Assembly (NCBI GenBank): GCA_021845505.1 | Contig: JAJZVU010000029.1 | Coordinates: 1-48,900 of the forward strand | Direction of reading: 5' to 3' | Origin: Pseudomonadota bacterium | GTDB taxonomy: Bacteria > Pseudomonadota > Gammaproteobacteria > Burkholderiales > Burkholderiaceae_C | DNA: 48,900 nt | Part shown: one piece after another, positions 43,568 to 48,900 of the stretch | How the letters are laid out: every line of letters begins with the position of its first letter | How positions within the stretch are numbered: the stretch's first letter is position 1 | The notes under the pieces: model-generated | What the model saw: the letters and a program-made list of their open reading frames with translations, nothing else | Told to the model about the DNA's origin: nothing | Database searches by the model: none | Translations under genes and position numbers: made by a program

Positions 43568-45673
<2,106 letters not shown>

Positions 45674-45691
45674 GCCACGGCGCCGGGCGCC

Positions 45692-46276
45692 TCAGATGCT
45701 CTCGCGCATGCGCCACCAGGGGTCTTCCGACACCGGTTGCGCGCCTGCGATGCGATCGAGCAGGCGCTGCGGATCGGGGTCGACCAGCAGCAGCCCGAGC
45801 ATGTCGGGAGAGACGAAGCCCTGTTCGTGGGTCTGGGCAAGGAAGTCCAGCAGCCCGTCGTAATAGCCTTCGCAGTTGACCAGGCCCACCGGCTTGTTGT
45901 GGTAGCCGAGCTGGCGCCAGGTCCAGATCTCGAACAATTCCTCCAGGGTCCCGAGGCCGCCGGGCAACGCGATGAAGGCGTCGGCGAAGTCGGCCATCAT
46001 TTTCTTGCGCTGGTGCATGGTCTGCACCACGTGCAGTTCGCTCAGGCCCTGGTGCGCGACCTCGCGCCGCATCAGCAGTTCGGTGGTCACGCCGACCACC
46101 CGTCCGCCGGCAGCCAGCGCGGCCTCGGCCGCCCGGTGCATCAGGCCGACGCTGCCCCCGCCGTAGACCAGGGTCATCGCGCGCTCGGCGATCGCGCGGC
46201 CCAGGCGGGTCGCGCAGTCCGCGTACGCGGAGTCGGCTCCGGCGCGGGAGCCGCAGTACACACAGACCGAATGCAT
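45692..46276 (-). CDS. LOG-family protein (cytokinin riboside 5'-monophosphate phosphoribohydrolase type)
   Basis: A 194-residue Rossmann-fold protein of the TIGR00730/LOG family. It has VCVYCGSRAGADSAYA, VYGGGSVGLMHRAAEAA and the catalytic motif LPGGLGTLEELFEIWTW. In plants and some bacteria the family frees the base from nucleoside monophosphates. The bacterial role is often unclear, and simple AMP or nucleotide hydrolysis is possible. It follows dgkA by 71 bases on the same strand and converges on glnB (18 bases). Confidence 0.92.
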   Translation of the reverse strand: MHSVCVYCGSRAGADSAYADCATRLGRAIAERAMTLVYGGGSVGLMHRAAEAALAAGGRVVGVTTELLMRREVAHQGLSELHVVQTMHQRKKMMADFADAFIALPGGLGTLEELFEIWTWRQLGYHNKPVGLVNCEGYYDGLLDFLAQTHEQGFVSPDMLGLLLVDPDPQRLLDRIAGAQPVSEDPWWRMRESI

Positions 46277-46347
46277 GGTGGGATGCCCGAGGCTTAGCTG
46301 AGAAGGCGAAGCTGCCGCGCGCCCGGCGCGCCTACGCCGCGCACGGC

Positions 46348-46722
46348 TCACAGCCAGCGCGGCAGCAGCACCAGCGCCCAGGTCGCCGCGCACAGCAGCA
46401 AGGTTAGCAGCACCGCGGCGCTGCCCAGGTCCTTGGCCTGTCCGCTGAGGTCATTGTGCTCCAGGGAGATGCGGTCGATCGCGCATTCCAGCGAGGTGTT
46501 GAGCAATTCGACGATCGGCACCAGCAGCACCGAGGCGACCAGCAGCGCGCGCTGCGTGCCGTCGTCGCCCAGCCACAGGCCCAGCGGCACCAGCAGCGCG
46601 GCGAGCAGGCCTTCCTGGCGCAGCGCCGACTCGGTGCGCCAGGCCGCGCGCAGTCCGCGCAGCGAATTGCGCAACGCACCCCAGGCTCGCCGCAGGCCCG
46701 AGGTCTTGTAGGGCGACGCCAA
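46348..46722 (-). CDS. dgkA: Diacylglycerol kinase
   Basis: Phosphorylates diacylglycerol to phosphatidate in the inner membrane. The 124-residue protein has three membrane helices and the family core: AAWRTESALRQEG, then NTSLECAIDRISLEHNDLSGQAKDLGSAAV, which holds the Glu and Asn of the active site. It starts at TTG 46722 with GAGGG seven bases upstream, giving the length of E. coli DgkA (122). It begins 10 bases after the stop of the GT4 gene and is in one unit with it and plcP. Upstream genes are predicted to make and consume diacylglycerol. Confidence 0.93.
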   Translation of the reverse strand: MASPYKTSGLRRAWGALRNSLRGLRAAWRTESALRQEGLLAALLVPLGLWLGDDGTQRALLVASVLLVPIVELLNTSLECAIDRISLEHNDLSGQAKDLGSAAVLLTLLLCAATWALVLLPRWL

Positions 46723-46732
46723 GCCAGCGCCC

Positions 46733-47767
46733 TCAATCCCCGCCGGTCGGCTGGCCGCACAGCTCGCGTTCGGCGGCCCGGCGCAGTTGCGACAGGAACT
46801 GTTCGGTGGCGCGCTCCCAGCTGAAGCGGCGGGCATGGGCCACTGCATTGTGGCGAGGCACGTGCAGCGCCTGCAGGCAGGCGTTGCGCAGGTCCTCGTC
46901 CAGCACTCCGGCGGCCGAGTCGCCGATGACGTCCAGCGGGCCGCTGACCGGATAGGCGGCCACCGGGCAGCCGCAGGCCAGCGCCTCGACCAGCACCAGC
47001 CCGAAGGTGTCGGTGCGGCTGGGGAAGACCAGCACGTCGGCGCCCGAGTACACCTCGGCCAGGCGCTCGGGGCTGAGCAGGCCGAGGAACCGCGCTTCGG
47101 GATAGCGTCGGCGGATGCGCGGCAATTCGGGCCCTTCGCCGACCACCCACTTGGTTCCCGGCAAGTCCAGCCGCAGGAAGGCGTCGATGTTCTTTTCCAC
47201 GGCCACGCGGCCGACGTACAGGAACACCGGCGGCTGGCCCGACAGCCGGCTGCCGGGGCGGGGATGGAACACCTGCAGATCGACTCCGCGCGACCACAGA
47301 GCGAGGTTGCGCAGTCCGCGCAAGCGCAATTCCTCGCAGATTCCCCGCGTGGGCACCAGGGTGGTGCGAGCCGCGCCGTGGAACCAGCGCAGGTAGGCGT
47401 AGGTCCACGCCAGCGGCACGCCCACGCGAGGGCGTATGTATTCGGGGAAGCGGGTGTGGTAGGCGCTGGTCAGCGGGATTCCCATGCGCAGCGCGGCGCG
47501 CCGCGCCGCCAGCCCCAGGGGCCCCTCGGTGGCCAGGTGCACCACGTCGGGGTCGAAGTCGTGCACCCGCGCGCGCACCGCGCGGTAGGGCAGCAGGCTG
47601 AGGCGGATCTCCGGGTAGGTCGGGCAGGGCAGCGTGGCGAAGGAGCCGGGTTCGATCACCTCGACTTGTTCGCCGCGCTGGCGCAACTGCTCGACCGTGG
47701 TCTGCAGGGTGCGCACCACCCCGTTGACTTGCGGGCTCCAGGCGTCGGTGGCGATCAGGATGCGCAC
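46733..47767 (-). CDS. GT4 glycosyltransferase, Agt-like (glycolipid synthesis)
   Basis: A 344-residue cytoplasmic or peripheral membrane glycosyltransferase of the GT4 family. It opens RILIATDAWSPQVNGVVRTLQT, typical of lipid glycosyltransferases, has FLYVGRVAVEKNIDAFL in the C-domain and the donor-binding motif FPSRTDTFGLVLVEALACG. It starts with GTG 47767, 13 bases inside the metallophosphoesterase gene. Agt enzymes glycosylate diacylglycerol in phosphate-starved bacteria; the same gene pair with plcP is known there. The lipid acceptor is inferred from context. A mannosyltransferase for another acceptor is the alternative. Confidence 0.85.
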   Translation of the reverse strand: MRILIATDAWSPQVNGVVRTLQTTVEQLRQRGEQVEVIEPGSFATLPCPTYPEIRLSLLPYRAVRARVHDFDPDVVHLATEGPLGLAARRAALRMGIPLTSAYHTRFPEYIRPRVGVPLAWTYAYLRWFHGAARTTLVPTRGICEELRLRGLRNLALWSRGVDLQVFHPRPGSRLSGQPPVFLYVGRVAVEKNIDAFLRLDLPGTKWVVGEGPELPRIRRRYPEARFLGLLSPERLAEVYSGADVLVFPSRTDTFGLVLVEALACGCPVAAYPVSGPLDVIGDSAAGVLDEDLRNACLQALHVPRHNAVAHARRFSWERATEQFLSQLRRAAERELCGQPTGGD

Positions 47768-48687
47768 GCGCGCGCTCCCGGCAGCAGCTCGGCGAGCACC
47801 CGCGGACTGGCCGATGCGGGAGTCCACATCAGCAACTGCAGCGCTCCGTTGTCGAGTTCGGCCACCGCGGTCAGGCTTTCCACCCAGTCGCCGCAGTTGG
47901 CGTACACGAGGGAGCCGATGCGCCGCAGTTCGGCGCGGTGGATGTGGCCGCACACCACCCCCTCGCAGCCCCGCCGCGAGGCCTCCTCGGCGAGCAGCTG
48001 CTCGAAGTGGGAGATGTAGCTGACCGCGTTCTTGACCTTGCCCTTGAGGTACTGCGAAAGCGACCAGTAGGAAAAGCCCATGCGGTGGCGAACATGGTTC
48101 AGCCAGCGGTTGAGCTTGAGGGTGAACACATACAGCGCGTCGCCCAGGTGGGCCAGCCAGCGGGCGTGCATCACCACGCCGTCGAACCAGTCGCCATGCA
48201 CCACCCACAGCCGGGCGCCTCCGGCGGTCAGGTGCACGGCGTCGCTGAGCACCTCGATGCCGCCGAAATGCAGCCCCGCGTAGTGCCTGGCGAATTCGTC
48301 GTGGTTGCCCGGCACGAACACCACCCGGCTGCCCTTGCGAGCCTTGCGCAGCAGCTTCTGCACCACGTCGTTGTGGGCCTGCGGCCAGTACCAGCCCTTG
48401 CGCAGTTGCCAGCCGTCGATGATGTCCCCGACCAGGTAGATGGTCGTGGCATGGCAGTTGCGCAGCAATTCCAGCAGCACCGTGGCCTTGCAGTCGCGGG
48501 TACCCAGGTGCACGTCGGACAGCCACAGCGTGCGGTAGCGGTGCGCCTCCGGCTCGTCGACGCCGTCGGAGGCGGCGAGACCGGCGGTCGGGCCGGGCGG
48601 CGCGACGGACTGTGTCGGCGGCGGCAGGTCGCGGCGGGACAGGCCTGCGCCGCCGCGCTGAGCCAGGGTCGTGAATGCGGGCCACAT
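47755..48687 (-). CDS. Metallophosphoesterase, PlcP-like (COG2908)
   Basis: A 310-residue binuclear-metal phosphoesterase. Metal motifs are in order: LSDVHLGT (Asp58, His60), YLVGDIIDGW, VPGNHDE, VVHGDWFD and GHIHRAE. Such proteins are often labelled UDP-2,3-diacylglucosamine diphosphatase, but the block GWYWPQAHNDVVQKLLRKAR and the GNHDE-to-FGGIEV stretch match, from memory, the PlcP phospholipase C of Sinorhizobium, which degrades phospholipids under phosphate limitation. An N-terminal extension of about 45 residues, Pro-rich, precedes the domain. Four Pho-box-like repeats lie 24 bases upstream. The GT4 gene overlaps its 3' end. Confidence 0.85.
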   Translation of the reverse strand: MWPAFTTLAQRGGAGLSRRDLPPPTQSVAPPGPTAGLAASDGVDEPEAHRYRTLWLSDVHLGTRDCKATVLLELLRNCHATTIYLVGDIIDGWQLRKGWYWPQAHNDVVQKLLRKARKGSRVVFVPGNHDEFARHYAGLHFGGIEVLSDAVHLTAGGARLWVVHGDWFDGVVMHARWLAHLGDALYVFTLKLNRWLNHVRHRMGFSYWSLSQYLKGKVKNAVSYISHFEQLLAEEASRRGCEGVVCGHIHRAELRRIGSLVYANCGDWVESLTAVAELDNGALQLLMWTPASASPRVLAELLPGARACAS

Positions 48688-48695
48688 GAGCCTTC

Positions 48696-48752
48696 ATTGC
48701 AGCGTGGCTGCATGACGGCCGCGTGACGCCTGGATGACGCGTCGATGACGAT
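48696..48752 (-). promoter_or_regulatory. Pho-box-like array upstream of plcP
   Basis: Reading the minus strand, CGTCAT, CGTCAT, CGTCAC and CGTCAT recur with starts exactly 11 bp apart (plus-strand TGACG at 48713, 48724, 48735 and 48746). PhoB boxes are direct repeats of CTGTCAT with 11-bp period, so four half-sites make two boxes. The core GTCA(T/C) is kept while the leading CT is C. TGCAAT at 48701-48696, about 10 bases past the last repeat, could be the -10; the start would then fall almost on the ATG at 48687. Confidence 0.6.
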
Positions 48753-48900
48753 CGCGAGTTGCCGGCGACGCCGTCGGCGCGGCGCGGGCGCGTGGCCTCA
48801 GCGCCCGGTGCCCGTTGCCGCTGTGTTGCCTGGTGCGCCGGCGCTGGCGGCCGGGGATGGCGCGCTGGCCCGCGGGGCCGCAGCGCTGGCTCGCGGGGCG

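Follow-up and report, generated by a model that had tools for sequence, protein, structure and literature searches.

In the parts of the literature available to us, from which all papers below are cited, operons joining plcP to agt are well known (PMC8528852, PMC4796936, PMC9239053, PMC8231724). In Pseudomonas aeruginosa the PlcP-Agt pathway leads to monoglucosyl- and glucuronosyl-diacylglycerol at low phosphate, and a Pho box, published as CTGTCATNNNNCTGTCAT, is reported upstream of plcP-agt1 (PMC8528852). In the marine Type 2 neighbourhoods plcP is likewise followed by an agt homologue, with Pho boxes predicted (PMC4796936). The word 'kinase' is absent from the main texts of these two papers, a scope that leaves outside it the supplementary tables listing the neighbourhoods of the second. 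Here we present an analysis of a 48,900-nucleotide stretch of DNA from a Pseudomonadota bacterium of the order Burkholderiales (contig JAJZVU010000029.1 of assembly GCA_021845505.1), called the window below, which spans the whole of contig C8; the assembly totals 3.70 Mb over 84 contigs. Near its right end the window carries, on the minus strand, a trio of genes consisting of plcP, a GT4 glycosyltransferase gene and dgkA, whose open reading frames are confirmed. We consider it probable, at roughly 0.7, that this trio forms an operon of the plcP-agt type for membrane remodelling under phosphate starvation, in which the last gene encodes an orthodox diacylglycerol kinase. Its first two steps are known from other organisms; dgkA in third position seems to be an addition that recurs but has gone undescribed.

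Kinases have been named together with these enzymes in two other settings. In Pseudomonas putida BIRD-1, DagK is counted with PlcP among the lipid-remodelling proteins raised at low phosphate, although the text available does not mention linkage of the genes (PMC5082522). In the phosphate islands of HIMB59, genes named LpxH, RfaG and DGK occur with pst, phoRB, ppk, ppx and sixA, but in the text available these islands are not read as lipid remodelling, the glycosyltransferase and the kinase being taken as without direct phosphate function (PMC10734472). On the whole, no description of plcP-agt-dgkA as a unit was found in the literature searched, which took in neither subscription papers nor figures nor supplements, and the one paper there that names both 'plcP' and 'dgkA' has the latter in a table of search genes. 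A SAR11 paper of 2015 is said to report a phosphate-responsive lipid gene cluster.

An earlier sequence-only reading of this DNA had described three overlapping or tightly spaced genes encoding a PlcP rather than an LpxH, an Agt-like GT4 enzyme and DgkA, and this description holds, with the same coordinates and the same 10-base gap from the GT4 stop to the TTG of dgkA. By homology the esterase is PlcP: it matches Pfam Metallophos (2e-10), and it shares 56.2% identity over 249 aa with the protein of the P. aeruginosa PlcP locus and 50.0% with a Sinorhizobium pSymB homologue. The P. aeruginosa record was equated with PA3219-PA3218 by gene order and by the description in the available text of PMC8528852. 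Among the best 80 named loci, the closest plcP loci belong to two metagenome-assembled genomes (MAGs) named 'Proteobacteria' (82% and 81%) and to 'Thiomonas sp.' (78%). The GT4 enzyme has Pfam matches to Glyco_transf_4 (2.6e-24) and Glycos_transf_1 (5.1e-19) and meets no NCBIfam equivalog cut-off; its gene adjoins plcP, overlapping the end of it by 13 bases, and the enzyme shares 51.4% identity with P. aeruginosa Agt1 over 327 aa, which bears out an Agt-like assignment. Gene order and overlap are also those of plcP-agt1. The DgkA is orthodox by homology, matching Pfam DAGK_prokar at 5.9e-31 (106.8 bits, cut-off 22.3) and E. coli DgkA with 47.4% identity over 114 aa, and it retains the RQEG, ELLN..E..D and AKD stretches of the latter, which we take to be catalytic.

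Table. Positions of the trio and of its flanking features in the window
Feature	Position	Strand	Description
plcP	47755-48687	minus	PlcP-type metallophosphoesterase (predicted: phospholipid to diacylglycerol), 310 aa, ATG start
agt-like GT4 glycosyltransferase gene	46733-47767	minus	Predicted: diacylglycerol to glycolipid; 344 aa, GTG start
dgkA	46348-46722	minus	Prokaryotic-type diacylglycerol kinase, 124 aa, TTG start
Pho-box-like array	48712-48749	minus	Four GTCAY units, 11-base spacing
LOG-family gene	45692-46276	minus	71 bases past the end of dgkA

The predicted activities of the three enzymes, with co-transcription, PhoB as the putative binder and the kinase in its proposed role, would work together as follows. 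At low phosphate a PhoB-type regulator would bind the GTCAY array, PlcP would remove the phosphate head group of membrane phospholipids to give diacylglycerol, and the GT4 enzyme would glycosylate the diacylglycerol to a phosphorus-free glycolipid. DgkA would phosphorylate the diacylglycerol left unglycosylated to phosphatidate, keeping free diacylglycerol low, maintaining the phospholipid share and providing the minimum of phosphatidate for essential phospholipids during starvation, and the leftover enzyme could speed recovery. The substrate of DgkA is free diacylglycerol and not glycolipid, so that DgkA cannot undo the glycolipid, and the unit encodes no enzyme leading from glycolipid back to diacylglycerol. 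The locus had been proposed to form a closed diacylglycerol node; the making, glycosylation and phosphorylation of diacylglycerol stand as predicted steps of it, but with no enzyme for the way back the node is half open.

The gene order is widely shared. In the genus of the window, the trio lies on one strand at 24 of the 26 other loci and the remaining two reach a contig edge, giving 25 of 25 readable loci with the window included; kept in this way, the order is not due to chance. A PlcP relative at 1e-60 is present in 131 of 250 sampled genomes of the order. Neighbourhoods were read in 100 genomes of the order outside the genus, all with a close PlcP relative, namely 94 of the 95 order-sample genomes stronger than about 1e-95 (G235 was missed) and six added ones; weaker PlcP relatives, which are 42-52% identical and include the C2 relative described below, were excluded. 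A GT4 gene follows plcP in 63 of the 100, and dgkA comes third in 16 of these, which are from five families. The other 37 include four with plcP and a downstream dgkA without an intervening GT4 gene, 31 with plcP alone and two at a contig edge. The trio was found in none of 10 genomes from other genera of the window's family. Among the best 80 named loci there are 24 trios, found in the window's genus (2), Burkholderia (5), Paraburkholderia (7), Cupriavidus (2), Caballeronia (1), Polynucleobacter (1), three MAGs, one alphaproteobacterium and two SAR116; the named and anonymous genome sets overlap and the counts are not additive. A unique gene order is rejected by this recurrence in the order sample and the named loci, and dgkA, taken by the sequence-only reading for an unusual third gene worth a neighbourhood survey, proves on such a survey to recur far beyond the genus. 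In G242, G270 and G182, three 1.3-Mb genomes of one family, the PlcP match holds a TAA and the open frame is 250 aa, which may reflect a shorter protein end or decay in small genomes.

The distance between the GT4 gene and dgkA, 10 bases in the window, is 16-93 bases between the aligned parts in seven loci of the genus, and about 40-80 bases in SAR116 and Polynucleobacter. We also mapped the linkage onto trees of PlcP and DgkA, both of them quick and with long branches. On the PlcP tree the trio label requires at least nine changes, only two of them imposed by strongly supported branches; on the DgkA tree, where L111 and L262 with plcP-dgkA but no GT4 gene are counted as linked, linked versus unlinked requires four changes, two of them forced. 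The linked DgkA proteins fall into the window's genus, family f43, which stands among unlinked rows with one f26 row nearby, and a third, weakly supported group of f32 (which includes Burkholderiaceae), f23, f30, f39 and SAR116. Since at least two linked groups are separate, the link between plcP and dgkA probably arose more than once, and two or more origins are likely, gain and loss being indistinguishable.

In addition, the linked gene is usually the only one of its kind in the genus. Among the 28 genus genomes, which include the window's and of which several are incomplete, 20 have one DAGK_prokar gene, six have two and two have none. The sole gene is the plcP-linked one in 19 of the 20 single-copy genomes (19 of 28 overall); the exception is G015, where it lies on a different contig and the plcP contig ends. 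On the quick DgkA tree, the second copies from G000, G012 and G022 cluster together at a distance from the others. That dgkA is a spare paralogue is rejected for most of the genus, though not for the genome of the window with its second divergent copy. This DgkA-like gene stands directly after a BioF/serine-palmitoyltransferase-like gene (L008:1465-3238, G000:C37 near 92.4 kb), and the kinase it encodes may act on another lipid.

The Pho link suggested in the sequence-only reading is supported, as a predicted box, by the four-unit array and by a second site before an OlsB-like gene near phoR-phoB. The plcP array and the published Pho box are identical in core and period, and TGCAAT, a -10-like hexamer, stands 10 bases past the last GTCAY unit before plcP. 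The exact three-unit pattern has no match in 100 dinucleotide shuffles of the window. On both strands of the 3.70-Mb genome it occurs only at plcP (two overlapping matches) and at C24:91662-91688, and the reversed pattern has no match in the whole genome. The C24 array starts 83 bases ahead of the start of the OlsB-like gene, whose best NCBIfam match is L-ornithine N-acyltransferase (156.5 bits, below the cut-off of 350). Genes for a histidine phosphatase (SixA-like), ppx, ppk1, phoR and phoB adjoin it, so ordered that the array lies inside a sixA-olsB-ppx-ppk1-phoR-phoB cluster (L276:1501-2363, G000:C24:91662 onward), and pstS is about 10 kb off. In front of plcP, olsB and pstS alike, the last half-site is followed after 10 bases by a -10-like hexamer, the hexamer pattern being loose. 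Glycolipid and ornithine lipid are both known kinds of phosphate-starvation response, and one rare array marks here the putative glycolipid operon and the putative ornithine-lipid gene.

This arrangement can be followed in other genomes. The upstream stretch in the window scores 15, with 0 of 60 shuffles scoring as high, and the plcP upstream of P. aeruginosa, taken as positive control, scores 16, which no shuffle of 60 reached. The scan of the 28 genus genomes gives 35 array matches in 18 genomes, against one for the reversed pattern. These matches represent 32 distinct sites. For the 28 that were read (five matches, at four distinct sites, were not classified), six are before plcP, 15 before olsB, four before an OmpR-type regulator gene and three before other genes. 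As the genus genomes are relatives, these sites do not count as independent. All 21 genus plcP upstreams read besides the window (out of 26 other loci) contain two or more exact units spaced by 11 bases, a count without shuffle control. Outside the genus 31 trio upstreams were scored against 60 shuffles each, five of the 16 order-sample trios and two of the 22 named ones being left out; for 13 of the 31 every shuffle scored lower, and apart from seven taken up below the remaining ones are intermediate.

Upstream of the trio, the start of plcP is 213 bases from the contig end. On its other side, glnK and nadE (both named by reading) follow beyond the LOG gene on the opposite strand. No consensus sigma-70 promoter was found in 45600-48900, and no terminator between dgkA and the LOG gene, the two predicted sites lying elsewhere with 1.0 expected. 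A LOG-family (cytokinin-type phosphoribohydrolase) gene is 3' of dgkA in 23 of the 24 other genus trios and is probably a conserved neighbour in the genus outside the lipid unit; it was not found beside the L058 trio, which is intact although glnK and nadE were not found beside it either.

Several observations weigh against the trio being a starvation operon with the kinase as a working member. Phosphatidate synthesis during phosphate starvation looks wasteful. In P. aeruginosa no dgkA comes after agt1, the next gene being one for adenylate cyclase on the other strand, and in the order 44 of the 63 plcP-GT4 pairs lack dgkA in third position, with three more reaching a contig edge; the pathway therefore does not require dgkA to be adjacent. 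A single transcript is doubtful in Burkholderia and Paraburkholderia, where about 190-505 bases separate the GT4 gene from dgkA. The genome of the window is itself among the six with two DAGK_prokar genes, the second being divergent, and it has a weak DAGK_cat match (29.5 bits) as well. As for the array, its spacers before plcP are G+C-rich, with C and not T before GTCAT, and the pstS box looks different; the exact three-unit form is found at only 6 of 27 genus plcP loci and nowhere in 10 of the 28 genomes; and seven of the 31 upstreams outside the genus (L076, L097, L135, L162, L165, L172 and L209) are no better than shuffles. Among the Cupriavidus, of which laboratory strains have the trio, C. 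necator (L162) has no box in the 250 bases read before plcP, and C. pinatubonensis (L166) has one.

Part of these observations would be explained if dgkA were a housekeeping gene that merely lies downstream, recycling diacylglycerol from the decoration of periplasmic glucan or lipopolysaccharide (LPS), with no regulatory meaning in its position. Such a gene fits the majority of pairs without dgkA and the wide gaps in Burkholderia, and the linked gene, being the only DgkA-type one found in 19 of the 28 genus genomes, would have to cover any housekeeping there. Against this, dgkA is kept at every readable locus of the genus even where the downstream neighbours changed, it takes third place again in SAR116 and in five further families of the order, and the linked DgkA proteins form at least two separate groups on the quick tree. 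We regard the housekeeping explanation as the best survivor among the alternatives, yet unlikely.

Also unlikely is a reader of the array other than PhoB, namely an orphan OmpR-type regulator that has the same GTCAY units in its own promoter. The next gene looks OmpR-type at 4 of the 28 distinct genus sites read (one of the four calls was made by Pfam, Trans_reg_C, and the others by reading), the ortholog in the genome of the window has two units upstream, and the plcP spacers are unlike those of pstS. However, olsB with the identical array sits in the ppx-ppk-phoR-phoB cluster, the arrangement of half-site, 10 bases and loosely patterned -10-like hexamer is common to plcP, olsB and pstS, and the published Pho box matches in core and period. 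The orphan OmpR-type DNA-binding proteins themselves (L301, L302, L304 and L303, with the ortholog L311 at G000:C35:14108-14758) have GTCAY units in their own promoters and a front part that Pfam does not recognise in the one member tested; the protein may be a member of the regulon or the regulator.

The sequence-only reading had assigned DgkA to recovery, converting diacylglycerol to phosphatidate once phosphate returns, and this role is not supported. It draws on the diacylglycerol pool in common, and a membrane enzyme, once produced under starvation, could remain in place; yet the glycolipid is no substrate of DgkA, and a common box of the starvation type would have the gene active while phosphate is lacking and silent once it is back. 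Were all three genes under the array, the kinase would be made in times of phosphate scarcity, and we infer that control of diacylglycerol during starvation fits the regulation better than a role in recovery, which we hold to be improbable.

The least probable of all, to the point of being rejected, is that the esterase is the lipid A enzyme LpxH and the unit serves envelope or LPS synthesis: its best NCBIfam matches are LpxH models, relatives carry LpxH-type annotation and the calcineurin-like fold is common to PlcP and LpxH, but both models are far under cut-off (TIGR01854, 31.6 bits against 190.35; NF003743, 38.9 against 134), a separate LpxH slightly above its cut-off (192.2 bits) is encoded on contig C23, and the neighbouring genes and the promoter indicate lipid remodelling. 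The esterase is only 28.0% identical over 132 aa to this LpxH of its own genome and 26.0% over 123 aa to that of E. coli, and a search of solved structures with E up to 0.01 gives one weak LpxH match. Its metal-site motifs of the calcineurin-like fold are SDVH from 57, GNHD from 127 and GHIH from 247; GNHD is found in all four PlcP-type proteins tested, in place of the GNRD of E. coli LpxH. A quick maximum-likelihood tree with 121 rows, of the kind the sequence-only reading had proposed, separates both LpxH proteins with full branch support, on branches that are long, and the placement of the Sinorhizobium and P. aeruginosa rows is unsure. The suspicion that an LpxH name hides PlcP is supported by the gene at the PlcP locus of P. 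aeruginosa, annotated as 'UDP-2,3-diacylglucosamine diphosphatase', and by a 2023 paper whose available text takes the LpxH of the phosphate islands as a lipid A enzyme (PMC10734472).

Two further observations concern plcP genes elsewhere. A second PlcP relative, 52% identical, is located at L004:4560-7371 (G000:C2:9559-12370), after which come genes for a VTT-domain protein and for another GT4 enzyme, 27% identical to that of the window; the whole-genome pattern scan did not find the exact three-unit array there, and this PlcP-VTT-GT4 locus on C2 is possibly a second lipid-remodelling unit. Three P. aeruginosa records labelled as plasmids carry plcP, and one of them (L227, NZ_CP137508.1) has agt1 and chromosome-like surroundings.

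With the starvation operon as the preferred reading, the fresh parts are the pattern of a sole DgkA within the operon in the genus, the recurrence of the trio elsewhere, and the array in common with olsB. A bolder version, which we put forward tentatively and at less than even odds, is that plcP-agt-dgkA is a recurrent diacylglycerol switch: the sole orthodox DgkA would have come under starvation control more than once, and one transcript would partition diacylglycerol between glycolipid and phosphatidate, with an ornithine-lipid gene on the same array and possibly an orphan OmpR-type reader. The label LpxH can conceal such units in genome surveys and in phosphate islands. For the bacteria themselves, phosphate-saving lipid remodelling would be widened to Thiomonas-like organisms, and a paradox comes with it, in that a phosphate-spending diacylglycerol kinase is placed repeatedly behind phosphate-saving enzymes.

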